The notes beneath the pieces are model-generated. The model searched no databases, was not told the DNA's origin, and was given only the letters and a program-made list of their open reading frames with translations. Shown piece after piece: positions 3,014 through 44,748 of a DNA stretch of 64,000 nt (position 1 is its first letter; every line of letters starts with the position of its first letter). The position numbers and the translations under genes are program-made. The stretch spans positions 62,001 to 126,000 of the forward strand of contig NZ_QOIN01000066.1 of assembly GCF_003323715.1 (NCBI RefSeq), read 5' to 3'. Source of the DNA: Streptomyces diacarni (GTDB taxonomy: Bacteria > Actinomycetota > Actinomycetes > Streptomycetales > Streptomycetaceae).

Positions 3014-3046
3014 GGTGAGCTCCTTACGAGAGTGTGCGGTGCCCGG

Positions 3047-4162: not shown

Positions 4163-4227
4163 AACGAACTCCCATCTGCGCAGCTCTGTCCAGCGGCTGC
4201 GATGGGGTTTAGATTGCGAGCCCAACT

Positions 4228-4271
4228 GGTCCGGTGGAAAGTGCCAGGACCGGCGACTCTGATGGGACCAG
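4228..4271. promoter_or_regulatory. Three GGWCCRG direct repeats, probable MocR/TauR operator
   Basis: In the 124-bp gap between ald and the divergent MocR gene the 7-mers GGTCCGG (4228-4234), GGACCGG (4247-4253) and GGACCAG (4265-4271) recur at 19- and 18-bp spacing in the same orientation. MocR-family regulators are known to bind direct repeats near the divergent target promoter; I recall TauR of Rhodobacter binding direct repeats that begin CTGGAC upstream of tpa. The first box here is preceded by CT, giving CTGGTCC. Assignment to this MocR protein is inference. Confidence 0.55.
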
Positions 4272-4286
4272 ACGGCGGGAGGCGGC

Positions 4287-5756: not shown

Positions 5757-5837
5757 GAACCCGGCTCGCCCGGTCGGCGCGGGCGCTCTCCGGTCTGCGC
5801 CCGGCTGGGCTTCGTCGCGCCGGTCGGGTCGGTGGCG

Positions 5838-7604
5838 TCACGGCCGGCAGGCGGCGGGCAGCAGCCGTGCGGAGCGGGCCAGCGGGGCGGCCGGATCCAG
5901 GAGCGAGGTACGGGACAGATACGGGCTCAGGTCGCCGCCCACCGTCAGCCCGTGCAGCTCCACCGCGCCCTCGGCCTCGATCCGTGCGGCCACCGACGCC
6001 AGATGGGAGTCCAGCAGGTGCGGCGGGTTCACCTGGACCGTCGCCCCGTCCGTCGGCCCGCCGTCCGAGACCAGGAACAGCAGCCGGCGCCCCGCGGGAC
6101 GCCGCGCGGCACGGCCCGCGGCCCATTCCAGCGCCTCACCGTCCACCCCCTCGCGGTACAGGTCCGGCTTGAGCAGCGCCGCGAGCGCGGTCCTGGCGCG
6201 GCGATAGGGCACCTCGGCGTCCCTGACCACGAGGTGCAGCCGCTCGTTGAGTCTGCCCGGACACGCCGGGCGGCCCGCCCGCAGCCAGTCCCGGTGGGCG
6301 CGGCCGCCGTGCCACGCGGCCGTGGTGAAACCCAGGACCTCACTCCGCACGCCGGCGAGGTCGGCAGCCCGCGTCCACACGTCGAGGAGCGCCGCGAGCT
6401 GCTCCCTGTGCTGCTTCATCGAACCCGAGCAGTCCAGCAGGAACGTCACCAGCGCCGCCGGCCGGTGCTCGGCCCGCCGGGTGCGGAAGACGCGCCGATC
6501 GCCGGGGGAGACCACCAGCCGCGCCAGCGCCCGCCCGTCGACCAGTCCTTCCTCCTGGCCGCCGGCCCAGTCACCGGGCCCTGGCCTCGCCAGCCGTTCG
6601 CGCAGCTGCCTCGCCAGCCGCGCCGTGTGCGGGCGCGCCTCCTCGATCCGCTGGTCCAGCCGGGCGCGGAAGTCGGCGAGGAGAGCGGGCCTCACAAGGG
6701 CGTGGGCGGCGCGTTCCCGGTCGTAGGCGGTGGTGAAGACCCGGTAGTCCGCGTCACCGCCCGCGCCGTCCGGCGCGGTGCCGAAGCCCCCCGCCGCCCC
6801 CTCGCCGTCCTGCGCGCTCTCCTCCAGCAGCAGCGAGAAGCGCGGCTCCTCCCTGCCGCGGGGCCCGTTGCGGCCCTTGCCGCCCGCCTCGTCCTCGCTC
6901 AGCATCGCGGCGACGGTGCGGGCCACCTCCCGTGCGTGCGGCGCGTACGCGGCCTGGTCGGCGCGGTGCCGTCGCAGCGCGGCGAGGTGAGGCCCGAGCC
7001 GGGCACCGAGCGCCGCGCGTGTCGCCTCGATCAGGTCCTCGGTCTCGGCGAGCACCGGCACCCCCAGCACCCGGGAGCGGCAGACCTCCAGCGTCGTGTG
7101 GAGCAGCAGGCCGCGCGCGGTCGCCGTCAGTCCCGAGCGGTGGAAGGCGCGGGCCCACTCGGTGTGGCGACGGCGCAGATTGTGCGCCATGCCGGGAAAC
7201 GGGTCAGGAACGAGGGATTCGGCGCGGTACTGCTCCAGCGTCTCGAACAGCAGCCGCTCCACCGGGTCCACGGGCCGCAGCCTGGTGTGCAGCGCGGCAT
7301 CGGAACGGATCAGCCGCAGGGCGAGTCCGTCCGCCACGCCCCGCAGCGCCGCGGGGCCGTCCGCGGGGGAGGGGCGCAGGTGCGGGGCGTGTGCGGGGAC
7401 CGGCGTGCGGCCGTCGTGCAGCCGGTGGCCTCGGAACGTCAACCCCGGTGTGCCGCTCAGTGCCCGTACGGCCGCCGCGCACAGCTCTTCGGCGCTGGGT
7501 TCGGCCGTTCCGGCGGCGGCGTACCGCGATGCGTCCTGGGCGGCGTGCCGCGAGGTGTGCTCTGCGGCGGATCCAGGCGTGTCCTTGCCGGCGGGTTCGC
7601 TCAC
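5838..7604 (-). CDS. CobT-like VWA-domain protein
   Basis: A 588-residue protein whose C-terminal half resembles the cobaltochelatase subunit CobT. It shows YRVFTTAYD, a linker of about 60 residues, then a von Willebrand A domain with the MIDAS motif DCSGSM starting at D391, followed by [10 protein letters not shown], a GRLNERLH segment, [10 protein letters not shown] and [12 protein letters not shown]. In cobaltochelatase CobT pairs with the AAA+ ring CobS and CobN to insert cobalt. The GTG start lies inside the stop of the CobS-like gene (GTGA, 7601-7604), so the two are translationally coupled. No cobN or other cobalamin gene is near; the genes around are for taurine/sulfoacetaldehyde breakdown. 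CobT membership is well supported by motifs; the function in this setting is unknown. Confidence 0.85.
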
Positions 7605-8572
7605 GCCGCCTCCAGCTCGCGGTCGAAGCAGCGCTGGAAGAGTTCGGCGACGAGCGGGCGTTCCTCCTCGTCGCACTTGTTCAGGAACGAGAGCCGGAAC
7701 GCGAGCGCCACGTCGCCGAAGAGTTCGGTGTTCTCGGCCCAGCTGATGACCGTGCGGGGCGACATCAGGGTCGACAGGTCGCCCGCGCGGAAGCCGGAGC
7801 GTGTCAGTCCCGCGACCGCGACCATCGCCTCCACGAGCGCCGGGTGCCCGAGCCCGGGCACCCGGGCCCGCACGATGGCGGCCTCCTCGGGCGGGGGCAG
7901 GTGGTCGAGGGCCGCGACGATGTTCCAGCGGTCCAGCTGCGCGTGGTTGAGCCGCTGCGCACCGCGGTAGAGGCCGTACGGGTCGCCGAGCCCGACCGTG
8001 TTGGCGGTGGCGAACAGACGGAAGGACGGGTGCGGCTCCAGCACCCGGTTCTGGTCGAGGAGGGTGAACTTGCCGTCGCGCTCCAGCAGCCGCTGGATCA
8101 CGAACATCACCTCGGGCCGCCCCGCGTCGTACTCGTCCAGGACCAGGGCGACGGGCCGCTGCAACGCCCAGGGGATGACCCCTTCCTGGAACGCGGTGAC
8201 CTGCTTGCCGTCCCGAAGCGTGACCGTGTCCTTGCCCACGAGGTCGAGGCGGCTGAGGTGCCCGTCCAGGTTGACACGGACGCACGGCCAGTTGAGCCGC
8301 GCCGCGACCTGCTCGACGTGGGTCGACTTCCCCGTCCCGTGCGGGCCCTGGAGCAGCACGCGGCGGTTGTGCGTGAAGCCGGCGAGGAGCGCCCGGGTGA
8401 CGTCCGGGTCGAAGCGGTAGGCGTCGTCGCGCTCTGGTACGTGAGCGGAGGGCTCGCTGAACGCGGGGATCTTCAGATCGGTGGACAGACCGAAGACCTC
8501 CCGCGCGCTCAGCCGGGTGTCGGGGCCCGTCACCTCGCGCGCGTCGGTCCCCGCAGGTGCCGTCTCGTTCAT
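7601..8572 (-). CDS. CobS-like AAA+ ATPase
   Basis: A 323-residue AAA+ ATPase very close in layout to cobaltochelatase CobS. It begins [15 protein letters not shown], has Walker [10 protein letters not shown] at residues 76-84, the CobS hallmark [19 protein letters not shown], Walker [17 protein letters not shown] at about 143-158, and [19 protein letters not shown] followed by [12 protein letters not shown]. CobS forms a hexameric ring that works with a CobT-type VWA protein as a metal-insertion motor. The ATG overlaps the stop of the upstream IclR gene by four bases (ATGA, 8569-8572) and the stop overlaps the start of the CobT-like gene, giving a tightly coupled iclR-cobS-cobT order. No chelatase large subunit is adjacent, so the target is unknown. 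Confidence 0.9.
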
Positions 8573-9342
8573 TCCTGTCCTCCTTCGTGCTCGACGCGGG
8601 CGATGGCCTCGGCCGCGCGTTGCAGCGCGGGCAGCAGGTGCAGCGCCTTGTCCGCGGTGAGCCGCATGACGGGTGCCTGGACGGCGACGCACTGGTTGGA
8701 GCGCCCGGCGGGGGAGGGGACCAGCACGGCCACGCAGACGAGACCGGGCAGGAACTCCTCGTCGTCCACCGCGAAACCGTCCCGCCGCACGCGGGTGAAC
8801 TCCTCCTCCAGCGGTCCCGGCTCGGTCACGGTGTGGGGCGTGTACTGCTTCAGCGGCGCGTGTGAGAGGAGCTTCGCGCGCTGGCCCGGGCTCATCTGGG
8901 AGAGGATCATCTTGCCGCTCGCCGAGCAGTGCGCCGGGACGCGGGAGCCGGGGCGCAGGTAGAAGCGCAGCGGCTCGGGGGTCTCGACGCGGTCGAGGTA
9001 GACGACCTCGTTGCCGGACAGGGCGGTGACGTTGCAGCTCTCCCCGATCTCCTCCACCAGGTGGCGCAGCACCGCGTGGCGTGCGCCGTGGTGGGTGGCG
9101 TTGAGCAGCAGGTTCTCCGCCAGTCTGCGCAGCCGTGCGCCTGTGCCGTAGTGCCGCCCGTCGCTCTGCCGCACGAGGAGGCCCGCGCTCTCCAGCTGTT
9201 GCAGCATGCGGTGCAGCGTCGGCTTCGGCATGCCCGTCTCGTCCACCAGGTCCTGGAGGGTGACGAGCCGGTCCTTGGCGGCTATCAGCTCCAGCAGGGC
9301 GAACAGCCGGATGGTGGGCGTCTCGCCGTTGAGTGTGTCCAT
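8569..9342 (-). CDS. IclR-family transcriptional regulator
   Basis: A 257-residue IclR regulator. The N-terminal winged helix spans about residues 10-70 ([38 protein letters not shown]), and the C-terminal effector domain carries [14 protein letters not shown] and [17 protein letters not shown] chose the internal ATG at 9342 because GGAGG lies 7 bases before it, while the farther upstream ATG in the same frame has none. It is divergent from xsc across about 300 bases and co-transcribed with the CobS/CobT-like pair by a 4-base overlap. IclR proteins usually control an adjacent catabolic operon, so xsc-pta-HAD and its own operon are the likely targets; the inducer is not known. Confidence 0.9.
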
Positions 9343-9438
9343 GTGTGTGCGCCTCCGGGCGGGTTCTGTGACGGCTCCCATGATCGACCATCGGTTCCGA
9401 AAAACAAGCTAGCAGGTACCGAATTGCGGAACACATGG

Positions 9439-9468
9439 TTGACGCCTGCGATGGCGGCTCCCTATCGT
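9439..9468 (+). promoter_or_regulatory. Candidate xsc promoter, flanked by repeated GGAACACA boxes
   Basis: TTGACG (9439-9444) and TATCGT (9463-9468) are separated by 18 bp, a reasonable housekeeping-type -35/-10 pair for xsc. The octamer GGAACACA occurs at 9428-9435, abutting the -35, and again at 9489-9496 just past the predicted start point; each copy has a nearby TACCGA (9417-9422 and 9500-9505). The repeats bracket the promoter and are candidates for binding by the divergent IclR protein. This is pattern recognition only. Confidence 0.4.
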
Positions 9469-9576
9469 CCAGTGCGATCCCGGATTCAGGAACACAACGT
9501 ACCGATTTCTCGACTGCCACGGCGAGTTGCCGTGTTCTCCCGGGGCCCGACCCTCCGGCCCCACGAGCGGACCGCC

Positions 9577-9618
9577 CGGAGCGCTGACGCGTGCCGCCGG
9601 ACCGCTGACGCGTGCCGC
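9577..9618 (+). repeat. Two tandem 21-bp repeats in the xsc leader
   Basis: Units 9577-9597 and 9598-9618 are identical at 20 of 21 positions; the shared core CGCTGACGCGTGCCGC recurs at 9582-9597 and 9603-9618. The pair sits between the candidate promoter and the xsc ribosome binding site (GAAGGAG, 14 bases after the second unit ends at its nearest). The 21-bp period equals two helical turns, as expected for a tandem protein site, but the repeats could equally act in the mRNA leader. Confidence 0.6.
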
Positions 9619-9641
9619 ACTGGAAGTGAAGGAGCTGGACC

Positions 9642-11414
9642 ATGAGCGAGCAACAGAAGATGACACCCTCCGAAGCCTTCGTCGAGACGCTGGCCGCCAA
9701 CGGCGTGACCGACATCTTCGGCATCATGGGCTCGGCGTTCATGGACGCGATGGACATCTTCGCGCCCGCGGGCATACGCCTGGTCCCCGTCGTCCACGAG
9801 CAGGGCGCCGCGCACATGGCCGACGGCTACGCCCGCGTCAGCGGCCGGCACGGCGTCGTCATCGGCCAGAACGGCCCCGGGATCAGCAACTGCGTCACCG
9901 CCGTGGCAGCCGCCTACTGGGCACACAGCCCCGTCGTGATGATCACGCCCGAAGCAGGCACCATGGGCATGGGCCTGGGCGGCTTCCAGGAGGCCCACCA
10001 GCTGCCCATGTTCCAGGAGTTCACCAAGTACCAGGCGCACGTCAACAACCCGCGCCGGATGGCCGAGTTCACCGCACGCGCCTTCGACCGTGCCATGTCC
10101 GAGATCGGCCCCACCCAGCTCAACATCCCGCGAGACCACTTCTACGGCGAGATCGAGACCGGGATCCCCGAGCCGATGCGCGTCGACCGCGGCGCGGGCG
10201 GTGAGCGCAGCCTGAACGAGGCCGCCGAACTCCTGGCCACCGCCGAGTTCCCCGTCATCATCTCCGGCGGCGGTGTCGTCATGGCCGACGGCGTCGAGCA
10301 GTGCAAGGCACTCGCCGAGCGGCTGGGCGCCCCCGTCGTCAACAGCTACCAGCACAACGACTCCTTCCCCGCCAGCCACCCCCAGTGGTGCGGCCCGCTC
10401 GGCTACCAGGGCTCCAAGGCCGCGATGAAGCTCATCTCCCGGGCCGACGTCGTGGTGGCCCTCGGCACCCGGCTCGGCCCCTTCGGCACCCTGCCGCAGC
10501 ACGGCATGGACTACTGGCCCAAGAACGCGAAGATCATTCAGATCGACGCCGACCACACGATGCTCGGCCTGGTCAAGAAGATCACCGTGGGCATCTGCGG
10601 CGACGCCGCCGACGCCGCCGAGGCCCTGACGCGGCGCCTGGCGGACAAGACCCTCGCCTGCGACGCCACACGCGAGCGCCGCGCCGCCGAGACCGCCGAG
10701 GAGAAGGCGGCCTGGGAGACCGAGCTGAGCGAGTGGACCCACGAACGCGACCCCTACAGCCTCGACATGATCGCCGAACAGGACGCTGAGGAGGGCAACT
10801 GGCTGCACCCCAGGCAGGTCCTCCGCGAACTGGAGAAGGCCATGCCCGAGCGGGTCATGGTCTCCACGGACATCGGCAACATCAACTCGGTCGCCCACAG
10901 CTACCTGCGGTTCGAGGAGCCCCGCAGCTTCTTCGCCCCGATGAGCTTCGGCAACTGCGGCTACGCGCTGCCCACCATCATCGGTGCCAAGGCCGCGGCC
11001 ATGGACCGGCCCGCGATCGCCTACGCCGGTGACGGCGCCTGGGGCATGAGCATGGGGGAGATCATGACGGCCGTCCGCCACGACATCCCCGTCACCGCCG
11101 TCGTCTTCCACAACCGCCAGTGGGGCGCGGAGAAGAAGAACCAGGTCGACTTCTACGACCGGCGCTTCGTCGCCGGCGAGTTGGAGAGCGAGAGCTTCGC
11201 CGGCATCGGCCGGGCCATGGGCGCCGACGGCATCGTCGTCGACAAGCTGGAGGACGTCGGCCCCGCGCTGCGGCGCGCCGTGGACCGGCAGATGAACGAG
11301 GGCAGGACGACGGTCCTGGAGATCATGTGCACCCGGGAGCTGGGCGACCCCTTCCGCCGCGACGCGCTGCAAAAGCCCGTCCGCTTCCTGGAGAAGTACC
11401 AGGACTACGTGTAG
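9642..11414 (+). CDS. xsc: Sulfoacetaldehyde acetyltransferase
   Basis: A 590-residue thiamine-diphosphate enzyme. It starts with [32 protein letters not shown] and has the Xsc-typical [16 protein letters not shown] (with the catalytic-type glutamate of ThDP enzymes) and [14 protein letters not shown]. The ThDP-Mg motif [13 protein letters not shown] begins at G463, followed by the near-invariant [20 protein letters not shown]. Xsc converts sulfoacetaldehyde and phosphate to acetyl phosphate and sulfite in the cytoplasm, the C-S bond cleavage step shared by taurine, isethionate and sulfoacetate pathways. pta follows downstream to use the acetyl phosphate, and an IclR gene is divergent upstream. 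GAAGGAG precedes the ATG. The general ThDP family includes acetolactate synthase, but the sequence fits Xsc best. Confidence 0.95.
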
Positions 11415-11621: not shown

Positions 11622-12671
11622 ATGCTCGTCGAACCGCACGATCCCCTCCCGTTCCCCGGCGCTGCCGGACCCGCCGTCAGGCGGCTGGCACAACGGTGGG
11701 CGACGCAGCTCGAAGGGGCCGCGCGCAGACCCCGCGTGGCCCTCGTCGAGGGGACGGATCCGCGAGTCCTGTGGGCGGCGGCCCGTCTCGCCCAGGAGCA
11801 GGCCGTCACCCCCGTCCTCGTCGCGGAAGAACCGGCCGCCGTCCGCGACCGCGCCGCCGACCTCGGCCTGAAACTTCCCGAGGACCCCGCGCTGCTGGAG
11901 ATCCTGCGGCCCTCCCGCTACACGGACACCCTCGCGGCGCTGCTCGAGGAACGGCCGCGCCTGGCCGCCCAGGTCCTCGACGACCCGCTCTTCCTCACCG
12001 CCGCCGCCCTGCGCCGCCACGACGTGGACGTGTGCGTGGCGGGCAGCAACCGCCCCACAGCCGACGTGCTGCGCGCCGGGCTGCGTGTCGTCGGCCTGGC
12101 GCCCGGCATCCGCACCCTCTCCAGCAGCTTCCTGATGCTGCGGCCCGACGGCGGTGCGCTCACCTACGCGGACTGCGCCGTCGTCGTCGATCCGGACGCC
12201 GGGCAGCTCGCCGACATCGCCCGCGCCGCGGCCGCCACGCACCACGCCCTCACCGGCGACGAGGCGAGGGTCGCGCTGCTCTCCTTCTCCACGCGTGGCA
12301 GCGCGGCACACCCGCGCGTCGACGTGGTGCGGGAAGCACTGTCGGTGCTGCGAGCGGCCGCCCCTGAGCTGCCCGTCGACGGCGACCTCCAGTACGACGC
12401 GGCCGCCGACCCCGACATCGGCGCGGCCAAGGCGCCCGGCTCGCCCGTCGCCGGGCGCGCGAACACCTTCGTCTTCCCTTCCCTCGAAGCGGGCAACATC
12501 GGCTACAAGGTCGCCCAGCGCGTCGGCGGCTGCGCCGCGATCGGCCCGTTCCTCCAAGGGCTCGCCGCACCTCTGCACGACCTCTCGCGCGGGTGCACCG
12601 GATCGGACATCGCCGCCCTCGCCCTCGCCGGCGGCGTGCAGGCTCTCACCACCGCGCAGGAGACACCATGA
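11622..12671 (+). CDS. pta: Phosphate acetyltransferase
   Basis: A 349-residue phosphotransacetylase of the short (catalytic domain only) type. Family landmarks are visible: RPRVALVEGTDPRVLWAA near the N-terminus, AGSNRPTADVLRAGL, then DGDLQYDAAADPDIG, FVFPSLEAGNIGYKVAQRVGG and a closing GPFLQGLAAPLHDLSRGC. It converts acetyl phosphate and CoA to acetyl-CoA and phosphate. Directly after xsc it would channel the Xsc product into central metabolism. The frame is open farther upstream, but homology starts at this ATG, which has GGGAG 5 bases before it. Its stop overlaps the start of the HAD gene (ATGA), indicating translational coupling. No acetate kinase gene is adjacent, which favours the acetyl-CoA direction. 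Confidence 0.9.
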   Translation: MLVEPHDPLPFPGAAGPAVRRLAQRWATQLEGAARRPRVALVEGTDPRVLWAAARLAQEQAVTPVLVAEEPAAVRDRAADLGLKLPEDPALLEILRPSRYTDTLAALLEERPRLAAQVLDDPLFLTAAALRRHDVDVCVAGSNRPTADVLRAGLRVVGLAPGIRTLSSSFLMLRPDGGALTYADCAVVVDPDAGQLADIARAAAATHHALTGDEARVALLSFSTRGSAAHPRVDVVREALSVLRAAAPELPVDGDLQYDAAADPDIGAAKAPGSPVAGRANTFVFPSLEAGNIGYKVAQRVGGCAAIGPFLQGLAAPLHDLSRGCTGSDIAALALAGGVQALTTAQETP

Positions 12672-13360
12672 CCACCCTCAGCCTCGCCGTGCTCGACCTC
12701 GCGGGTACGACAGTGGCGGACGACGGAATCGTCGAGGACGCCTTCCTCCACGCGCTCTCCCGCGAAGGCGTACGCCAGGGCAGCGCCCGCCACGACGCCA
12801 TGATGCGCCACGTCCGGGACACCATGGGAGAGTCCAAGGTCTCCGTCTTCCGGCATCTCTTCGACGGTGACGAGGACACCGCCCAGCGGGCCAACACCGC
12901 CTTCGAGGAAGCGTACGCGCAGATGGTCGCGTCGGGCCGCTGTTCCGCGCTTCCGGGTGCGCGGCAGGCCATCGAGTCGCTCAGGGCACATGGCTGTGCC
13001 GTCGTCCTCAACACCGGCTTCTCGCCCCGCACCCGTGACGACCTGCTCGCCTCGCTGGGCTGGAGCGCACTCGCCGACGCGGTGCTGTCCCCCGCCGACG
13101 CGGGTCGTGGCAGGCCCTATCCCGACTTGGTGCTGGCGGCGCTGCTGCGCACGGGAGCCCCCTCGGTCGACTCCGTCGCGGTCGTCGGAGACACCCCGCA
13201 CGACATACGGGCGGGCCGCGCCGCCGGCGCCGGGCTGGTGGCGGGTGTGCTGACCGGCGGGCACGACGCGCAGTCCCTGCGCGCCGCGGGCGCCGACCAG
13301 GTGCTCGACTCGGTGGCCGGGCTGCCCGCGCTGATCGAGGCGGCCGACCGCGCCGCCTGA
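12668..13360 (+). CDS. Phosphonatase-like HAD hydrolase
   Basis: A 230-residue HAD-superfamily protein closest to the PhnX/phosphonatase-like clade. The nucleophile motif VLDLAGTT puts the catalytic aspartate at D10. In the cap region MGESK places a lysine at K57 where PhnX enzymes have the Schiff-base lysine of MGxxK; the loop NTGFSPRTR and the acidic motif VVGDTPHDIRAGRAAGA follow. PhnX hydrolyses phosphonoacetaldehyde, the phosphorus analogue of the Xsc substrate sulfoacetaldehyde. The gene is coupled to pta by an ATGA overlap and ends the xsc operon before a strong hairpin. It may act on phosphonoacetaldehyde, acetyl phosphate or another phosphorylated side product; the true substrate cannot be read from sequence. 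Confidence 0.8.
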   Translation: MTTLSLAVLDLAGTTVADDGIVEDAFLHALSREGVRQGSARHDAMMRHVRDTMGESKVSVFRHLFDGDEDTAQRANTAFEEAYAQMVASGRCSALPGARQAIESLRAHGCAVVLNTGFSPRTRDDLLASLGWSALADAVLSPADAGRGRPYPDLVLAALLRTGAPSVDSVAVVGDTPHDIRAGRAAGAGLVAGVLTGGHDAQSLRAAGADQVLDSVAGLPALIEAADRAA

Positions 13361-13390
13361 CGCGCGCCGGCCCTGACACGCGGTCCCCGC

Positions 13391-13419
13391 CGGGCGGGCG
13401 CGGGCGCCGCGCCCGCCCG
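13391..13419. terminator. Bidirectional terminator hairpin
   Basis: CGGGCGGGCGCGG (13391-13403) pairs perfectly with 13407-13419 around a 3-base loop. It lies between the convergent HAD and deacetylase genes and would end both transcripts. Confidence 0.7.
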
Positions 13420-13441
13420 ACGGGTACGGATGTGGTGACCG

Positions 13442-14419
13442 TCAGGGCCGGTCCTTCGCGCGGTCGTCCTCCGCCAGCGGATCCGCGGACTGCGGCAGCC
13501 ACCGGGAGGCGGGGTGGACGGTGCGCCAGTGGCGGGCGATGTCCACACGGCGTGTGACCCACACGTCCGGGTGCTGAGCCACGAGATCCAGGAACCGCCG
13601 CAGGTCGGCGGCGCGGCCCGGCCGTCCGCTGACCCTCAGGTGCAGACCGACACTCATCATGCGGGGGCGCTCCGCGCCTTCTTCCAAGAGGAGTTCGAGG
13701 GCGCGTGTGAGGTACGCGGAGAAGGACTCGGACTGGAAGCCGTAGGTGTTGACGTACCGGCCGTCGTTGTTGTCGAGGGTGTAGGGGACGACGAGTTGCG
13801 CCGTGCCGTCGACGTCGACCCAGTACGGCAGGTCGTCGCTGAAGGAGTCCGAGTCGTAGAGGAAACCTCCGTGCTCGACGACCAGGCGGCGGGTGTTCTC
13901 GCTGTTGCGCCCCGTGTACCAGCCGAGGGGCGGCCGGCCGCACACCTCGGTGTGGAGGCGCACGGCCTGCTCGATGTGCTCGCGTTCGACCTCGGGGGCG
14001 AGTTGCGCGTAGTTGATCCACCGCAGCGAGTGTGAGGCGATCTCCCACTCGGAGGCCTGTGCGGCCGCCACGAGTGGCGGGTTGCGGCGCAACGACTCCG
14101 TGATGCCGAAGACCGTCACAGGCAGGCCGCGTTCTTCGAACAGCCGGTGCAGCCGCCAGAAGCCCGCGCGGGTGCCGTACTCGTACTGGGACTCGACGTT
14201 GAGGTTGCGGCGGCCCCGCAGCGCGGTGGTCGGCTCCTCGGTGAGGAACGCCTCCGAGGCCTCGTCGCCGTGCAGGACGTTGTTCTCGCCGCCCTCCTCG
14301 ACGTTGAGGACGAACTGCACGGCCACCTTCGCTCCGCCGGGCCACTGCGCGTGGGGGAGCCGCCCGCCGTAGCCGGCCATGTCACGGGGGTAGTCACTGG
14401 GTGAGGAGACGCGTGTCAT
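13442..14419 (-). CDS. Polysaccharide deacetylase-family protein (PuuE allantoinase-like)
   Basis: A 325-residue NodB-fold protein of the PuuE/CDA type. It begins with YPRDMAGYGGRLPHAQWPGGAKVAVQFVLN, close to cofactor-independent allantoinase PuuE, and carries EYGTRAGFWRLHRLFEERGLPVTVFG, SEWEIASHSLRWIN and RPPLGWYTGRNSENTRRLV. Proteins of this group hydrolyse C-N bonds; PuuE opens allantoin. No allantoate amidohydrolase, uricase or ureidoglycolate gene is in the window, so purine catabolism is not supported by neighbours. The gene is divergent from an FCD regulator with a GTCA-N4-TGAC box between them, suggesting it belongs with the sialidase-like/ECF transporter cluster and may act on an amide of that substrate. 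AAGGA precedes the ATG. Confidence 0.75.
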   Translation of the reverse strand: MTRVSSPSDYPRDMAGYGGRLPHAQWPGGAKVAVQFVLNVEEGGENNVLHGDEASEAFLTEEPTTALRGRRNLNVESQYEYGTRAGFWRLHRLFEERGLPVTVFGITESLRRNPPLVAAAQASEWEIASHSLRWINYAQLAPEVEREHIEQAVRLHTEVCGRPPLGWYTGRNSENTRRLVVEHGGFLYDSDSFSDDLPYWVDVDGTAQLVVPYTLDNNDGRYVNTYGFQSESFSAYLTRALELLLEEGAERPRMMSVGLHLRVSGRPGRAADLRRFLDLVAQHPDVWVTRRVDIARHWRTVHPASRWLPQSADPLAEDDRAKDRP

Positions 14420-36686: not shown

Positions 36687-38069
36687 TCAGTCCAGTTCCA
36701 TCCCGCTGGTCTCCGGTGCCCAGGCCACCGACACCACCGCTCCGAGAACGAGGAAGCCCGTCAGCGCGACCATCGAGGTGGAGAACCCGAACGTCGAGAG
36801 GCTGACGGGCAGCAGGAACGTGCCCATGGCGGAGCCGATCCGGCTCAGCCCGTTCAGCAGGCCCACGCCCGAACTGCGCACCCCGGTGGGGAACAGCTCC
36901 GGGGGATAGACCTGGTCGAGGTTGGAGGAGGCCGACATGGTGAACGTGAAGACCAGGAAGAGCGGGAACAGCAGCAGCGTCGGCGCGCTCGGCCACACAC
37001 CGATCACTCCGAGCGCGAGGGACATGACGACGAACGAGGAGATGAGGAACCCGCGGCGGGTGAACCTGGCCACGAACCACAGCCCGCCGATGCCGCCCAG
37101 CAGCAGGAAGACGTTGAGCAGCCCGTTGCTGAGGAACTCCTCGTCCGCGAGCCCCAGGCGCGCCATGACCGTCGGCAGGAACGTGTAGATGGCGAAGTAC
37201 GGGATGACCTGGCAGTTGTAGTAGAGGACGCCGAAGAGGGTGTTCTTGCGGTGACGTCGGCGGAAGAGCTCGCGGTAGTCGTGTGTTTCCTCGGGCTGCG
37301 CTCGGGTGAGAAGAGGGGAGATGTCGATTCCGGAGCCGATGTGCTTGGCGACCACCGCCTTGGCCTCGTCGACACGCCCCCTGCTGACGAGCCAGCGCGG
37401 GGACTCGGGGGTGCCGATGCGCATCAGCAGGACGAAGACGGCGGGGAGGGCGCTGCTGGCCAGCAGCCACCGCCAGCTGTCTCCGCCGAAGCCGACCAGG
37501 TAGTTGCCGAGGAAGTAGGCGGCGATGTAGCCGACCGTCCACATCGCGGTGAGCGAGGCGAGGAGGCCGCCGCGGTAGCGGCGCGGGCAGAACTCGGCCA
37601 CCAGCGTCGGGCCGAGGGCGTAGTCGGCGCCGATGCCGAAGCCGATCAGGAGACGCAGCACGAACAGCTCGGTGGGCCCGGTGACGAAGAACTGGGCCAC
37701 GGAGGCGACCGTGATGAGCAGGAAGTCCAGCAGGTAGATCCGCTGTCTTCCGTAGCGGTCGGCGGCCCAGCCGAGCACGATGCTTCCCGCGAAGATGCCG
37801 ATGAGCGCCGAGGCCCCCAGCAGGCCCTGCCAGGCCGCGCCGAGGCCCATCTGCGGGGTGATCAGGGTCAGGGCGATGCCGATGATGCCCAGGTGGTAAC
37901 CGTCGGAGAAGTTCGCCCCGAACGTCAGCGCGGTGATCTTGATGTGGAAGCGGTTCAGGGGCGCGTCGTCGAGGGTCGGGAGCGACGGCGAGGAGACTGC
38001 CGCGTCGTCCGGCGGGCTGGGGGTGTTCGGCGGCTTCGGGGTGCGAGTGGCCTCGGGGACGTGTTCCAC
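36687..38069 (-). CDS. MFS transporter (metabolite:H+ symporter type)
   Basis: A 460-residue MFS permease of the aromatic acid/sialate:H+ or metabolite symporter type, with a 45-residue hydrophilic N-terminus and twelve helices. Motifs include GWAADRYGRQRIYLLDF after helix 2, GFGIGADYALGPTLVAEF, RRYRGGLLASL, SPRWLVSRGR and YPPELFPTGVRSSGVGLLN. I chose GTG 38069 because GAGGAG lies 6 bases upstream; ATG 38099 in the same frame has no ribosome binding site. The gene is divergent from an ammonia-lyase homologue with under 90 bases between, so it probably imports the amino acid or aromatic substrate of that enzyme. Confidence 0.85.
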   Translation of the reverse strand: MEHVPEATRTPKPPNTPSPPDDAAVSSPSLPTLDDAPLNRFHIKITALTFGANFSDGYHLGIIGIALTLITPQMGLGAAWQGLLGASALIGIFAGSIVLGWAADRYGRQRIYLLDFLLITVASVAQFFVTGPTELFVLRLLIGFGIGADYALGPTLVAEFCPRRYRGGLLASLTAMWTVGYIAAYFLGNYLVGFGGDSWRWLLASSALPAVFVLLMRIGTPESPRWLVSRGRVDEAKAVVAKHIGSGIDISPLLTRAQPEETHDYRELFRRRHRKNTLFGVLYYNCQVIPYFAIYTFLPTVMARLGLADEEFLSNGLLNVFLLLGGIGGLWFVARFTRRGFLISSFVVMSLALGVIGVWPSAPTLLLFPLFLVFTFTMSASSNLDQVYPPELFPTGVRSSGVGLLNGLSRIGSAMGTFLLPVSLSTFGFSTSMVALTGFLVLGAVVSVAWAPETSGMELD

Positions 38070-38131
38070 GGCTTTCTCCTCAGACTTGCCAAGCACCATG
38101 AATGGAGGATTTCATGCAGCCTCAGAGGTGA

Positions 38132-38141
38132 ATAGATCTAT
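38132..38141. promoter_or_regulatory. Palindrome in the MFS/ammonia-lyase divergent region
   Basis: ATAGATCTAT is a perfect 10-bp palindrome, AT-rich in a very GC-rich genome, centred between the two divergent starts, 16 bp before the lyase start. It may be an operator or overlap a -10 element. No regulator gene is adjacent. Confidence 0.35.
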
Positions 38142-38156
38142 GTCAAGGGGTGGGTG

Positions 38157-39608
38157 ATGACCGACAGCAGCACTGTCCGCATCGACGGTCGGCACCTGCG
38201 CTGTGCCGACGTCGTCCGGGTGGCACGCCGGAGCGCATGGGCGACGCTCGACGACGCGGCGCTCGGCAGGGCCCGCGAAGCCTACGCGGTGGCGCGGGAC
38301 ATCGGCGCCAAGAGAGCCGTCTACGGGCGGACGACCGGCGTAGGAGCCAACCGGCACGACGTCGTCGACCCCGACTCCGCCGACCAGCACGGCCTGCGCC
38401 TCCTCAGCAGCCACGCGGGCGGCACGGGCGAGCCGGCCGCCGACCCCCTCGTCCGCTCGACCCTGCTGATCCGGCTCAACCAGCTCGCCGCCGCCGGCAG
38501 CGGGGTCCACCCCCGCCTCCTGGAGGCCCTGTCCGGCGCGCTGCGCGTCGGAGCCCTCCCGCGGGTGCACTCCCTCGGCGCCATCGGCACCGGCGACCTC
38601 AGCGCGCTCGCCGAGATCGCCCTGACCCTCGCCGGGAGGCGTCCCTGGGCCGTGGGCTCCCTCCCCCCGGTGCCGATCAGCCCCGGCGACGCCCTGGCGT
38701 TCATCTCGAGCAACGCCGCCACCCTCGCGGAGTCCGTACTGGCATGGCACGACCTGCGCGAGCTGCTCCACTCCAGCCATCTCGTCGCGGGGCTGTCCTA
38801 CTGCGCGCTCGGCGGCTCACCCGAAGCGTTCAGCGCACGCGTCCACGCGCAGCGGCCGCACCTGGGGTCCGTGCGCAGCGCCGCCGAGATGCGCCGCATC
38901 CTCTGGGGCGACGAGGAGCCCCGGGCCGGCCGCAGGCTGCAGGACCCCTTCGGGCTGCGCGCGTTCCCCCAGGTGCAGGGGCCGGCGCTGGAGGCTGTCG
39001 ACTCCCTGGAGAGCGTGCTGAGCACCGACCTCAACGCGGCGGCCGAGAACCCGTTCATCGACATCGAGACGGAGAACGCCTATCACCACGGACACTTCTC
39101 CACGGCCTACCTCGCGCTGTCACTCGACCACCTGAGGGCCGCGCTCCACCACGTCGCGGAGCTGTCGGCCGCTCGCCTCGGCGACCTGGTCGAACCGGAG
39201 CTGACGGGGCTGTCCCCGTTCCTCGCCGCCGGGCCGTCCGGCAGCTCCGGCATCATGATCCTCGAATACGTCGCCCACGACGCCCTCAGCCAGTTGCGGC
39301 ACGCGGCCGCACCGGTCACCTTGGGGACGGCCGTCATCTCCCGCGGCCTGGAGGACCACGCCAGCTTCTCCACCCAGGCGGCGCGCAGCACCTCCGCCGC
39401 GATCGGCGCGTACCGCACCGTGCTCGCGTGTGAACTGCTGGCCGCCGTACGGGCGCTGCGGCTCAGGTCCGAGGAACTGCCGCACGCCCCGGTGGCGGAG
39501 GCGTTCCGCATGGCTGCGGCGTCCCTGCCGATGGTCTCCGAGGACCACCCGTTGACGGAAGAGATCGCCCGGGCCGAACAACTCGTGGCCGGGTTGGCCG
39601 CTGTGTGA
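38157..39608 (+). CDS. Aromatic amino acid ammonia-lyase-family protein with non-canonical active site
   Basis: A 483-residue member of the HAL/PAL/TAL fold family. The catalytic-tyrosine loop is present (VYGRTTGVGANR, Y56), as are LIRLNQLAAAGSGV, AAENPFID and PSGSSGIMILEY. The MIO prosthetic-group tripeptide Ala-Ser-Gly is not: the segment reads SLGAIGTGDLSALAE (residues 142-148 AIGTGDL), one residue shorter than GSVGASGDL. The usual YSLRCxPQ motif is FGLRAFPQ, so the second catalytic tyrosine is Phe. It may be an altered MIO enzyme or a non-MIO lyase/mutase-like enzyme. AAGGGG precedes the ATG; GTG 38154 is adjacent. The divergent MFS gene is probably its transporter. Confidence 0.8.
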   Translation: MTDSSTVRIDGRHLRCADVVRVARRSAWATLDDAALGRAREAYAVARDIGAKRAVYGRTTGVGANRHDVVDPDSADQHGLRLLSSHAGGTGEPAADPLVRSTLLIRLNQLAAAGSGVHPRLLEALSGALRVGALPRVHSLGAIGTGDLSALAEIALTLAGRRPWAVGSLPPVPISPGDALAFISSNAATLAESVLAWHDLRELLHSSHLVAGLSYCALGGSPEAFSARVHAQRPHLGSVRSAAEMRRILWGDEEPRAGRRLQDPFGLRAFPQVQGPALEAVDSLESVLSTDLNAAAENPFIDIETENAYHHGHFSTAYLALSLDHLRAALHHVAELSAARLGDLVEPELTGLSPFLAAGPSGSSGIMILEYVAHDALSQLRHAAAPVTLGTAVISRGLEDHASFSTQAARSTSAAIGAYRTVLACELLAAVRALRLRSEELPHAPVAEAFRMAAASLPMVSEDHPLTEEIARAEQLVAGLAAV

Positions 39609-41116: not shown

Positions 41117-41359
41117 CGTGGTGCTTCGCCTTTCGTGTCGTACGGGGTGGCGGTGGTGGACCGGGCGGGCGAGGAACCCGTTGTGCTGATCATCCTACGG
41201 ATGGGCGGGCCGGCCCTCCGCCCCGAGGAGCCGCTGCGGACCACCAGCGCCGGACCGCCGCTCAGCGTCATGGCGTAGCGGACTGCCGCGACGCGGCGGA
41301 GCGGATCGATGGGTTCAGGCCACAATGAGTGGTGCTTTCCACGGTCGGGAGGGGACGAG

Positions 41360-41977
41360 GTGACTGACGGGTTCAAGCGCCGCACGCCGAGCCGGTGGGG
41401 GGAGGGCGGCGTGCTGCGTGAGGAGATCCTCGCGGCCGCCGCGCGGCTGTTGGCGGAGTCCGGCCGTGAAGGGGACCTCTCCCTCCGTGCGGTCGCCCGT
41501 GAGGTCGGGATCTCGGCTCCCAGCATCTATCTGCACTTCGAGGATCGCGCGGAGCTGGTGTCCACGCTCACGCGCCGGGCGTACGAACGGCTGGTCGGCG
41601 ACCTGCGTGCGGCCAGGGAGCGCGGGGCCGTCGACGGGCCGCGGGCGGGGCTGCGTGCCATGACCCGGCGGTACTGCGCGTTGGCTCTCGACAATCCGAG
41701 GCTCTACCGGCTGATGTTCGGCATCGAGCGGATCGAGGTTCCCCGCGAGGAGCTGGCCTCCCACCCGCTGTGGTGGGTGGCCGAGGCGTGGCACGACGCC
41801 GTCGCGGCCTGCCGGCCCGGCGCGGCTGAGGAGCCCGGCGACAGACGGGTGGCCAAGCTGTTGTGGTTCTCCCTGCACGGGGTGGTGGCGATGGCCCTGT
41901 CCACGCCCTTCCAGGTGGACCGGCAGGCGTTGGAGGAAATGGCCGATGACCTCCTCGACTTGGCGCTGACCAGATGA
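41360..41977 (+). CDS. TetR-family regulator upstream of the P450 operon
   Basis: A 205-residue TetR regulator. The N-terminal helix-turn-helix is LREEILAAAARLLAESGREGDLSLRAVAREVGISAPSIYLHFED (about residues 17-60, shown here across its whole span but not as one motif), with a C-terminal TetR_C_13/33-like ligand domain (YRLMFGIERIEVPREEL, LLWFSLHGVVAMAL). GTG 41360 is preceded by GGAGGGG. It lies in the same direction as the P450 gene 96 bases downstream, with a CTAAC-N3-GTTAG palindrome between. It probably represses the P450-ferredoxin-reductase unit. The 243 bases before it hold no recognisable gene. Confidence 0.85.
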   Translation: MTDGFKRRTPSRWGEGGVLREEILAAAARLLAESGREGDLSLRAVAREVGISAPSIYLHFEDRAELVSTLTRRAYERLVGDLRAARERGAVDGPRAGLRAMTRRYCALALDNPRLYRLMFGIERIEVPREELASHPLWWVAEAWHDAVAACRPGAAEEPGDRRVAKLLWFSLHGVVAMALSTPFQVDRQALEEMADDLLDLALTR

Positions 41978-42023
41978 CATGCATGCCGGCGATCACTTCG
42001 AGCCAAGTGGTTGCCCGAGGCAC

Positions 42024-42036
42024 CTAACGGTGTTAG
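42024..42036. promoter_or_regulatory. CTAAC-GGT-GTTAG palindrome upstream of P450
   Basis: A perfect 5-3-5 inverted repeat 38-50 bp before the P450 start. A related site, CTAACGGTTAG, lies at 48264-48274 before another TetR gene. It is a likely TetR operator. Confidence 0.55.
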
Positions 42037-42073
42037 CAAGAGAGGACGCGATCCCTCTGCCGTGGAGGCATGC

Positions 42074-43303
42074 ATGACGGAGACAGTGGCGGACACCGCA
42101 GCCGGACTGCCCGGATATCCTTCACCCAGGGCGGCCGGGTGCCCCTTCGACCCCCCGCCGGCCCTTCGCCCCCCGCACGCGGACCGACCCGTCTCCCGCG
42201 TGCGACTCTGGGACGGCACGCAGCCGTGGCTGATCACCCGTCACGCAGACCTGCGCACACTGCTGAACGATCCACGGGTCAGCGCCGACTCCACCCGCGA
42301 CGGCTATCCGCATAGGTCCGCCTCGATGCAGGGCAGCGACCCGGCCACCCAGACCTTCTTGAGCATGGACGATCCGGAGCACGCCCGGCTGCGCCGGATG
42401 GTGACGTCCCCCTTCGCCATCAGGAAGATGGAGGCCCTGCGGCCGTCCATCCAAAAGATCGTCGACGACCTGATCGACGCGATGCTCGCGGGCCCCCGGC
42501 CGGTCGACCTCGTCGAGGCGTTCGCGCTTCCCGTCCCCAGCCTCGTCATCTGCGCGCTGCTCGGCGTGCCGTACGAGAAGCACGACTTCTTCCAGCGCAA
42601 CACCAGGGTCATCGTCCGCCGCACCTCCAGCCCCGAGGAGGTGGCGGCGGCGAACACGGCGCTCGTCGACTACATGGACGACCTCCTCGGTGACAAGCTC
42701 GCCCACCCCGCCGACGACCTCCTGTCCACACTTGCCACCGAACGCGTCGCCACCGGCGAGATGACCCGGCGCGAAGCCGCCCGCATGGGCAACCTCCTGC
42801 TCGCCGCGGGCCACGAGACCACCGCGAACATGATCGCTCTGGGCACCGTCGCGCTGCTGCGGAACCCCGACCAACTCGCCCGGCTACGGGACACCGAGGA
42901 CCCCAAAGCCGTCGCGGGCGCGGTCGAGGAACTCCTCCGCTACCTGAACATCACCCACTCCGGGCGCCGCCGCGTGGCGCTGGAGGACATCGAGATCGGT
43001 GGCGAGACCATCCGCGCCGGTGAAGGCCTCATCTTCGCCAACGACATCGCCAACCGGGACCCGGACGCCTTTCCCGGGCCCGACCGGCTCGACCTCAGCC
43101 GGGACGCCCGCCGCCACGTCGCCTTCGGCTACGGCGTGCACCAGTGCCTCGGCCAGCCGCTCGCCCGCGTCGAGCTCCAGGTGGTCTACAGCACGCTGTA
43201 CCGCCGCATCCCCACCCTGGCGCTGGACACCCCGTTCGAACAGCTTGAGTTCAAACACGACGGCCTCGTCTACGGCGTCTACAAGCTCCCCGTCACCTGG
43301 TAA
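42074..43303 (+). CDS. Cytochrome P450
   Basis: A 409-residue soluble bacterial P450. The I-helix oxygen-binding motif is AAGHETTANM, the K-helix ExxR is EELLRYLN, and the heme-binding loop is FGYGVHQCLGQPLAR with the ligand cysteine at C358. SMDDPEHARLRRMVTSPF and the N-terminal proline-rich region are typical of the CYP105/107 type. The ATG has GGAGG 7 bases upstream. It is followed by a [3Fe-4S] ferredoxin and a ferredoxin reductase, so the complete electron-transfer chain is encoded together. It hydroxylates or epoxidises an unknown small molecule; no biosynthetic gene cluster surrounds it, which fits a catabolic or detoxifying role controlled by TetR. Confidence 0.95.
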   Translation: MTETVADTAAGLPGYPSPRAAGCPFDPPPALRPPHADRPVSRVRLWDGTQPWLITRHADLRTLLNDPRVSADSTRDGYPHRSASMQGSDPATQTFLSMDDPEHARLRRMVTSPFAIRKMEALRPSIQKIVDDLIDAMLAGPRPVDLVEAFALPVPSLVICALLGVPYEKHDFFQRNTRVIVRRTSSPEEVAAANTALVDYMDDLLGDKLAHPADDLLSTLATERVATGEMTRREAARMGNLLLAAGHETTANMIALGTVALLRNPDQLARLRDTEDPKAVAGAVEELLRYLNITHSGRRRVALEDIEIGGETIRAGEGLIFANDIANRDPDAFPGPDRLDLSRDARRHVAFGYGVHQCLGQPLARVELQVVYSTLYRRIPTLALDTPFEQLEFKHDGLVYGVYKLPVTW

Positions 43304-43339
43304 CCCTTCGCCGCCCTCGACGAAAGAAGCGAGAAACCC

Positions 43340-43534
43340 ATGCGCGTGGAAGTCGACCAGCCCAAGTGCGTCGCGTCCGGGCAGTGCGTCCTGGCGGCCC
43401 CCGACGTCTTCGACCAGGACGACGACGGCATCGTCGTGACCTTGAACGACCGTCCGGACACCGGCCTGCACGACGACGTGCGGGAAGCGGCGGCGCTCTG
43501 CCCGGCCGCCGTCATCAGCCTGGTGGAGAAGTGA
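43340..43534 (+). CDS. [3Fe-4S] ferredoxin
   Basis: A 64-residue ferredoxin of the SoyB type. Cluster cysteines are C10 and C16 (PKCVASGQCVLAAPDVF) and C54 before proline (ALCPAAVIS), the three-cysteine pattern of a [3Fe-4S] cluster. The acidic surface (DQDDDG) suits docking to the P450 and its reductase. It begins 36 bases after the P450 stop, and its stop overlaps the GTG start of the reductase gene by four bases, so the three are one transcript and the last two are translationally coupled. Confidence 0.93.
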   Translation: MRVEVDQPKCVASGQCVLAAPDVFDQDDDGIVVTLNDRPDTGLHDDVREAAALCPAAVISLVEK

Positions 43535-44748
43535 CACCCTCGCCGCCGCTGCGACGCGTCGTCATCGCAGGGGCCTCGGCGGCCGGATTGTCCGCCGCCG
43601 AGACCGTGCGCCGAGAGGGGTTCGCCGGCACGGTCACCCTCGTCGGCCAGGAGCGGCACCTCCCCTACGACCGGCCGCCGCTGTCCAAACAGGTGCTGAC
43701 CGGAACCTGGCCCGCCGAACGCACGGCACTGCGCACAGCGGACGACTTGAAGGCCCTCGGCATCGACCTGCGGCTCGGCACGGCCGCGGCCGCTCTGTCG
43801 CCCACTGCCCGCACGGTCACCCTGGCCGACGGCACGGACCTCGGCTACGACGCGCTGATCATCGCCACGGGGGTCAGCCCGCGGCGGTTGCCGTGGTGCG
43901 GCACTCCGGGCGTGCACGTGCTCCGCGACCTGCAGGACGCCCTCGCCCTGCGGCAACGGCTTGCCGCGGGACGGCGGTTGGTCGTGGTCGGCGCAGGGTT
44001 CCTCGGCTCAGAGGTCGCCTCGGCCGCCCGCTCACTCGATGTGGACGTGACCCTCGTCGAACCGGCCGCCGTCCCCCTCGCACACGCCGTCGGACACCAA
44101 GTCGGCGCCCACCTGGCCGAGGTGCACCGAGACCACGGGGTCGACCTGCGTCTCGGTACGCAGGTCGCGGACATCGCTGCCGGGGCCGGCCGGGTCACCG
44201 GGGTCCGGTTGACGGACGGGACACTGCTCCCGGCGGACGACGTGCTCGTCGCCGTCGGGTCCGAACCCAACACCGCGTGGCTGCGGGGGAGCGGACTGCG
44301 GCTGTCCGACGGGGTGGTGTGCGACGCGTACAGCGCCGCCGCCCCCGGGGTGTACGCGGCAGGCGACGTGGCCCGCTGGCACCACCCGCTGTTCGACACC
44401 TGTCTGCGCGTCGAGCACCGCACCAACGCCGCCGAGCAGGGCATGGCCGTGGCACGCAATCTGCTGCGCCCCGAGCAGGCGAAGCCGTTCACCCCGGTCC
44501 CGTACTTCTGGTCGGACCAGCACGGCAGGAAGATCCAGGCCTACGGCCACCTGCGCGGCCACGGCGAGGCGCGGGTGGTGGAGGGCGATCCGGCCGACGG
44601 CCGCTTCCTCGTCCTCTACCGGACCGGCCGCACCCTCACCGGCGCGCTCGCCGTGGGCATGCCCCCGAAGGCACTCCGCCGGTGGCGAGCCGCCATCGCC
44701 GCCGGAACCGACTGGCACACACTCACCACGGACTCACTCGTCGCCTGA
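43531..44748 (+). CDS. FAD-dependent ferredoxin reductase
   Basis: A 405-residue NAD(P)H:ferredoxin oxidoreductase of the putidaredoxin-reductase type. FAD-binding motif VVIAGASAAGLSAAETVR is at the N-terminus, LPYDRPPLSKQVL follows, the NAD(P) fold is RRLVVVGAGFLGSEVASAA, and the second FAD motif is GVYAAGDVARW. The C-terminal reductase domain contains PYFWSDQHGRKIQAYG. It passes electrons from NAD(P)H to the adjacent ferredoxin for the P450. GTG 43531 overlaps the ferredoxin stop. A perfect 18-bp hairpin follows. Confidence 0.93.
   Translation: MTPSPPLRRVVIAGASAAGLSAAETVRREGFAGTVTLVGQERHLPYDRPPLSKQVLTGTWPAERTALRTADDLKALGIDLRLGTAAAALSPTARTVTLADGTDLGYDALIIATGVSPRRLPWCGTPGVHVLRDLQDALALRQRLAAGRRLVVVGAGFLGSEVASAARSLDVDVTLVEPAAVPLAHAVGHQVGAHLAEVHRDHGVDLRLGTQVADIAAGAGRVTGVRLTDGTLLPADDVLVAVGSEPNTAWLRGSGLRLSDGVVCDAYSAAAPGVYAAGDVARWHHPLFDTCLRVEHRTNAAEQGMAVARNLLRPEQAKPFTPVPYFWSDQHGRKIQAYGHLRGHGEARVVEGDPADGRFLVLYRTGRTLTGALAVGMPPKALRRWRAAIAAGTDWHTLTTDSLVA

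Follow-up and report, generated by a model that had tools for sequence, protein, structure and literature searches.

A predicted MIO-less lyase of the histidine ammonia-lyase fold in Streptomyces diacarni and its actinobacterial relatives, with hercynine as its proposed substrate

The stretch of Streptomyces diacarni DNA considered here, 64,000 nucleotides of contig NZ_QOIN01000066.1 (positions 62,001 to 126,000) and referred to below as the window, encodes a protein of the PF00221 family, the histidine ammonia-lyase (HAL) fold, that lacks the tripeptide giving rise to the 4-methylideneimidazol-5-one (MIO) cofactor. It belongs to a family, named here GTGD after its altered loop, in which this tripeptide is absent throughout. 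There is fairly good support for these proteins being MIO-less lyases with a histidine-derived substrate. With moderate confidence, the window protein is further predicted to be a MIO-free trimethylamine-lyase that converts a histidine betaine, most likely hercynine, to urocanate for the histidine utilization (Hut) pathway; hercynine is proposed from the genomic context of the relatives.

The gene lies at positions 38154-39608 of the forward strand, its frame is free of internal stops, and it encodes 484 amino acids from a GTG start or 483 from the ATG at 38157. The PF00221 match extends over residues 15-453, a whole-length domain (4e-112; 375.7 bits against a cut-off of 27.3). Eight NCBIfam models also match, each below its cut-off, and no named family is reached: the hutH model (TIGR01225) gives 273.6 bits against a cut-off of 539.15, and the models for phenylalanine ammonia-lyase, tyrosine ammonia-lyase (TAL) and aminomutase score lower. 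Among solved structures the best match is the histidine ammonia-lyase 7tqr (3.2e-47), followed by the Treponema denticola ergothionase 6s7j (2e-43). The nearest homologue is a copy in S. reniochalinae with 97% identity. The window genome has two more PF00221 genes, on other contigs, and their MIO loops are of the usual kind: GCSGD (HutH type) and GASGD.

The defining feature is the loop GAIGTGD (residues 142-148; 38577-38597, forward strand), which replaces the MIO loop GSxG[AC]SGD and is one residue shorter. When aligned with HutH of the same genome, GSLGCSGD stands opposite GAIG-TGD, so that one residue is gone and no Ala/Cys-Ser-Gly remains. The homologues compared fill 118 rows at 40-97% identity to the window protein (117 distinct, as L022 and L220 are one record), comprising the 80 nearest loci, which are the best 80 of 146 relatives by similarity, and 38 loci from systematic genome sampling; two of them, L222 and L224, carry an identical 140-residue segment and may come from near-identical strains. 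The loop could be read in the alignment in 114 rows. It is equally shortened in every one of these, [ACGST]SG occurs in none, and the tetrapeptide is GTGD in 109, GTSD in two, GTAD in two and GIGD in one. The remaining four loops, read separately, are GSVGTGDL, GSVGTGDI, GGIGTGDL and GGVGTGDL, and a search of all 118 rows for the X-Ser-Gly of the MIO tripeptide found no instance. A sequencing or frame error as the cause of the short loop is ruled out by the S. reniochalinae copy and the wider family. An earlier note on this DNA had described GAIGTGDL in place of GSVGASGDL, one residue shorter and without Ala-Ser-Gly, and the alignment with HutH and the homologue rows bear this out; the replacement segment FGLRAFPQ, the Tyr loop and AAENPF are likewise as it described them.

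Two explanations had been offered in that note, a MIO formed from Gly-Thr-Gly or a different activity of the fold. Dehydration of Thr is possible in principle, and a MIO or methylated MIO made in this way would leave the protein an ammonia-lyase or aminomutase. This is barely credible, because Thr is replaced by Ile and Gly by Ala or Ser (GTS, GTA and GIG) in homologues with the remaining residues intact; in addition the loop is one residue short and the Asn-Gly-Thr segment of HutH is gone. A high-scoring HutH-type gene is moreover present besides the GTGD lyase in each of the 21 carrier genomes searched, which also rules out the lyase as a replacement for HutH. The second explanation gains support from the family-wide absence of the MIO tripeptide and from the precedent of ergothionase.

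Although the MIO tripeptide is gone, the active-site Tyr, His, Gln, Arg, Phe and Glu of HAL are retained across the family. Tyr57, in the Tyr loop VYGRTTGVGANR (38319-38354, forward strand, as for all residues that follow), is present in 114 of the 114 readable rows, and so is His87 of the Ser-His pair (38412-38414), presumably the ring-selectivity position of HAL-type enzymes. The Tyr loop carries GVGANR where the same-genome HutH has GFGALA, and this GVGxN[RK] is common to ergothionase and not to HutH. Ser185-Ser186-Asn187 (38706-38714), which we take to be the site of HAL's MIO-contacting Asn, corresponds to Asn-Gly-Thr in HutH and to Ser-Cys-Asn in T. denticola ergothionase; Ser-Ser is found in all 118 rows and Asn in 111. 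These two changes, at 185-187 and in the Tyr loop, go beyond what the earlier note had seen. The segment QDPFGLRAFPQ (38940-38972) replaces QDAYSVRCAPQ of HutH, with Gln263 and Arg269 in 118 of 118 rows, and Phe315 is kept in 116. Glu371-Tyr372 (39264-39269) has Glu in 117 rows and Tyr in all 118, at a place where four of five ergothionase rows have Gln/Glu-Lys. Glu400 of EDHAS (39351-39353) is present in every row and is conserved in both HutH and ergothionase. Loss of the cofactor motif might also be expected of a non-catalytic or decaying PF00221 relative, a reading that is very improbable given the invariance of Gln263, Arg269 and Glu400, and of Tyr57 and His87 where readable, over 40-97% identity; frames are open in nearly all members (L201 alone was noted with an internal TGA), and the partner genes described below recur.

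Ergothionase, which eliminates trimethylamine from ergothioneine, has the same PF00221 fold and is represented by the T. denticola enzyme (6s7j/6s7q) and that of Burkholderia sp. HME13. The T. denticola loop, SSIG-EGD (GEGD), is shortened to the same length as that of the window protein, and the two share S-[SC]-N, QDP, GVGxN[RK], the Ser-His pair and the Tyr, Arg and Glu residues. PMC13405746 describes ergothionase as lacking MIO. As to a characterised enzyme with the same motif, which the earlier note had thought of, ergothionase thus supplies the short MIO-less loop, but the exact GTGD sequence is not its own. A Lys follows Gln/Glu in the IQK segment in four of five ergothionase rows (it is absent in L135), whereas the GTGD family has Tyr in its place; this Lys is presumably a catalytic residue. 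Four plasmid-borne proteins, called ergothionase by similarity only, carry the loops GAAD (Polaromonas), GEAD (Paracoccus), GQAD (Sinorhizobium) and GEAD (Burkholderia). HutH resembles the window protein in its fold, the Ser-His position, the Tyr, Gln, Arg, Phe and Glu residues and the Hut context of many relatives; it differs in possessing the MIO tripeptide.

In a tree of 61 rows the GTGD family forms a clade of its own, 28 rows including an Arthrobacter outlier, with support of 100/100. It joins the ergothionases and two other MIO-less rows at 96/82, as a clade neighbouring the ergothionases and not inside theirs, while HutH and TAL-like rows stand apart; for this tree the program gave a long-branch warning. 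A 45-row tree with most long branches removed kept the GTGD and ergothionase groups apart and shows three main groups whose join is unrooted. Pairwise similarity does not settle the kinship, since identity favours HutH (31-32% to two actinobacterial HutH proteins, 26-28% to five ergothionases) and BLAST favours T. denticola ergothionase (181 bits, the best of nine comparisons, against 166 and 172 for HutH). Shared residues and the tree point towards ergothionase, and the window family is therefore read as one related to ergothionase and likely to function in the same manner, without being a shown member.

Other MIO-less groups of PF00221 (GASD, GAGD, GIGD/GTGD-LQPM and SAGE) also lack X-Ser-Gly and occupy separate tree branches; the rows L118/L119, L124-L127 and L140 fall elsewhere in the 61-row tree than the GTGD/ergothionase join. 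In an Actinophytocola metagenome-assembled genome, a second MIO-less PF00221 gene (GSIGASDL; L083 3017-4537, the same gene as L111) lies beside an ATP-binding cassette (ABC) importer and a GTGD lyase, and the tree places its protein with a GAGD protein from Rhizobium, close to ergothionase. The proteins of L118 5808-7391 and L119 6644-8248 form another branch, with GIGDLQPM or GTGDLQPM. In L124-L127, a further branch on a long stem, GxGSAGE or GLGAAGE replaces the MIO loop. MIO-less genes are easily mislabelled, as the Rhizobium GAGD relative is annotated hutH, histidine ammonia-lyase.

The case for a histidine-derived substrate stems from gene neighbourhoods. Systematic genome sampling was used because the 80 nearest loci are biased by construction. 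Homologues were found in 29 of 394 genomes (12 of 137 genera) of a class sample and, with the Arthrobacter homologue as query, in 9 of 396 genomes of a phylum sample, both at E <= 1e-60, and in 7 of 295 genomes of a genus sample at E <= 1e-130, the window genome being included in each. The 38 sampled loci are all these places except the window, with flanks of about 8-10 kb where contigs allowed. In 14 of the 38, from six families, a HutU (urocanase) gene is found no more than 10 kb from the lyase, with 70-87% identity to the HutU of Nocardioides luteus, compared with a chance expectation of about 0.1 (one urocanase per 8 Mb genome). The corresponding binomial value of 1e-27 takes no account of common descent and should not be read as a true probability. 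Among the 80 nearest loci HutU is linked in six.

Several loci extend this association beyond urocanase. The run in N. luteus (L024) begins with an IclR-like gene, hutU and hutF; a HutD/Ves-like gene and the lyase follow, then an OpuC-type ABC system, an M20 amidohydrolase gene and hutI, without hutH; a canonical hutH-hutU pair is located on another contig. Here the IclR-like gene was named by eye, the only NCBIfam match of the HutD-like gene is Ves, below cut-off, and the importer ATPase scores just under the proV cut-off. In Pseudonocardia parietis (L026), a member of the window's own clade, the 6 kb upstream of the lyase hold the sole urocanase of the genome together with an M20 gene, hutF and hutI, and the HutH-type gene is about 1 Mb away. 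The Arthrobacter locus L131 has the order importer, hutU, lyase, with hutU directly upstream of the lyase. In four loci (L073, L076, L188 and L189, including Actinoallomurus and Actinomadura) the lyase is positioned between hutU-hutH and ergothioneine biosynthesis (egt) genes, divergent from the importer; other actinomadura-type loci have one side only, hut or egt, within the flank. In total egt genes occur near nine loci, seven of the 80 nearest and two of the 38 sampled, and one representative each of EgtA, EgtC and EgtD (L073) and EgtB (L076) scored above the NCBIfam cut-off. Across the family, though not in the window genome, the lyase recurrently sits near urocanase and further hut genes, which suggests an added entry enzyme of the Hut pathway. 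On a Paracoccus saliphilus plasmid (L134 1-7596) a divergent hutF is followed by hutI, hutH, hutG, hutU and, directly behind hutU, an ergothionase-like MIO-less gene (GEAD); since this ergothionase-like gene stands behind hutU, the Hut link is not confined to actinobacteria.

The type of the linked urocanase bears on whether the lyase could be an actinobacterial ergothionase, releasing trimethylamine from ergothioneine (or its sulfinate or sulfonate) to give thiourocanate or a derivative, from which a neighbouring thiol dioxygenase or some other enzyme would strip the sulfur before HutU. A gene of the thiourocanate type can also exceed the hutU cut-off, as in L119 below, and two model scores were therefore compared. 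Four lyase-linked urocanases gave 875-930 bits as urocanate hydratase against 626-670 as thiourocanate hydratase (cut-off 930); the other linked urocanases were recognised by identity to the N. luteus protein (70-87% in the sampled loci, or 74-79%). A companion thiourocanate hydratase was thus not found among the four scored, and 18 of the 21 carrier genomes have one urocanase only, as does the window genome. Pseudonocardia spinosispora, which carries a GTGD lyase (L013), has in addition a MIO-less lyase of another kind (L119) beside ErtE, above cut-off, and a thiourocanate-hydratase-like gene that scores 704 bits as thiourocanate hydratase, below that model's cut-off, against 582 as urocanase (cut-off 375); perhaps this cluster is an actinobacterial ergothioneine-type pathway. 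The short loop and residues in common with T. denticola ergothionase, the leading BLAST score and the egt genes near nine loci all speak for ergothionase activity, and a CDO_I-type gene near 10 of the 80 nearest and 9 of the 38 sampled loci (one representative matched PF05995) hints at a sulfur substrate. Against it stand the urocanase scores, the low identity, the separate clade and Tyr in 118 of 118 rows where four of five ergothionase rows have Lys, and the ergothionase reading is rather unlikely.

Two proteins accompany the lyase in several families, the CDO_I cupin (PF05995; L082 11532-12044) and a protein without a Pfam or NCBIfam match (L074 10734-11663), and a role for them in sulfur removal from ergothioneine is possible. 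For lineages with the dioxygenase-like gene, it may be guessed that ergothioneine would be oxidized to the 2-sulfinate and lose SO2 to give hercynine (or urocanate), to be followed by the MIO-free lyase and the Hut enzymes.

The Hut and egt neighbourhoods, together with urocanases of the urocanate type, lead to urocanate as the probable product and hercynine as the probable substrate. In this scheme hercynine, the histidine betaine produced by EgtD, would be cleaved to urocanate and trimethylamine, and urocanate would pass to urocanase (HutU) and the remainder of the Hut pathway. The role of MIO is to activate amines that leave poorly. A quaternary trimethylammonium is already a leaving group, so MIO would be dispensable here and acid/base residues could suffice, as in ergothionase.

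Import of the substrate would be carried out by different systems in different lineages. In the window, a divergently transcribed major facilitator superfamily (MFS) transporter gene (36687-38099, reverse strand; PF00083, with aromatic acid/H+ symport as the best NCBIfam model, below cut-off) is the proposed importer. The 54-bp gap between the two genes (38100-38153) is possibly a shared control region, and no strong inverted repeat was found in a search around it. Of the 20 nearest loci (L004-L023), 12 have a homologous MFS gene next to the lyase, as do five of five sampled loci at 70-75% identity, so that the pairing holds for 16 of the 24 distinct loci of the window's clade (L220 and L022 counted once); window-type MFS genes occur in 6 of the 38 sampled loci. 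Loci beyond this clade usually pair the lyase with an OpuC-type ABC importer or with none of the partners tested. The earlier note's suggestion that the adjacent MFS protein carries the substrate is therefore reasonable within the clade and does not extend to the family as a whole. The OpuC-type importer, near 25 of the 38 sampled loci, is of the same family as the EgtU/EgtUV and ProU/OpuC quaternary-amine importers, in place of which the window has its MFS protein.

The binding pocket of these importers is less conventional. In EgtUC the trimethylammonium of ergothioneine sits in a cage of Tyr341, Tyr419, Tyr443 and Phe293 over Asn339, with Lys242 in contact with the carboxylate (PMC9732360). 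Lyase-linked binding proteins have Asp341 in 31 of 32 readable rows (a further four could be read partially) and in the same 31 have Gln, Glu or Ala at 443 and Ala or Asn at 242, so that two of the four cage aromatics and the Lys242 of EgtUC are lost; the aromatics at 293 and 419 are retained, and Asp339 and Arg275 mostly stand where EgtUC has Asn and Thr. Only the binding protein of L219, a hut-linked locus, keeps all four cage aromatics. A protein of the changed class without a linked lyase occurs in N. luteus (L236), and classical pockets are found in other binding proteins of carrier genomes (L235, L237 and L239). The comparison weakens the importer as proof of a betaine substrate. The substrate might accordingly be a histidine-derived acid other than a betaine, one that forms urocanate by losing, for instance, an amine (secondary or tertiary) or an oxygen group: the Asp341, Asp339 and Arg275 of the linked binding proteins fit such a reading, and the Hut context and the Ser-His position point to an imidazole substrate. 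We nevertheless consider it unlikely, as the sole characterised MIO-less relative acts on a betaine and the hut-linked L219 protein keeps its aromatic cage; we know of no enzyme that forms urocanate from a non-betaine histidine derivative of this kind.

Several of these observations tell against hercynine as the substrate, and confidence in it is held down in particular by the linked importers, whose pocket departs from that of a typical betaine importer and would suit another ligand, or one bound in another way. Since plain histidine is also transported by importers of the ProU type (HutXWV), the linked importer may serve HutH instead of the lyase. None of the partners tested is present at 52 of the 80 nearest loci, mostly from Amycolatopsis and its kin. 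The closer identity to HutH than to the ergothionases and the sulfur substrate hinted at by the CDO_I-type genes count on the same side. Finally, the window genome possesses EgtD, a HutH-type gene and its single urocanase, yet its hut and egt genes are on other contigs than the lyase, and in the window the lyase has no hut or egt gene around it; the function proposed for the window protein therefore rests on homology.

Other genes of the window are of separate interest. The region 1628-11414 encodes an aminotransferase (above the cut-off of the aspartate aminotransferase family), an alanine dehydrogenase (TIGR00518) and the sulfoacetaldehyde acetyltransferase Xsc (TIGR03457, 1053.6 bits), which suggests a taurine or sulfonate breakdown cluster. 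At 12593-14419 a phosphonatase-like hydrolase (TIGR03351) and the allantoinase PuuE (TIGR03212) are encoded, both above cut-off. At 41309-44748 a gene judged TetR-like by eye is followed by a row of cytochrome P450 and ferredoxin reductase genes, whose matches to known models stay below cut-off.

A MIO-free lyase in the HAL fold is not new in kind, ergothionase being the precedent. Among the papers listed by searches of an open-access collection, from which most subscription journals are absent, neither the GTGD family with its Hut and egt neighbours nor the hercynine reaction predicted here appeared, and no hercynine lyase was among them. Tentatively, such a lyase may give actinobacteria a second way into histidine breakdown; in lineages with the dioxygenase-like gene it may be the end of a reverse path from ergothioneine, and in Streptomyces carriers a source of trimethylamine. 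PMC5207766 treats trimethylamine as a volatile signal and leaves its genetic origin in S. venezuelae open. If the predicted reaction is correct, it would supply a step of hercynine breakdown not found described in the literature searched, and would connect the egt genes of ergothioneine biosynthesis and the hut genes of histidine catabolism at a single locus. It would also add a second, distinct MIO-free catalyst to a fold used for biocatalysis, and would provide a named candidate gene for the release of trimethylamine by soil actinobacteria.

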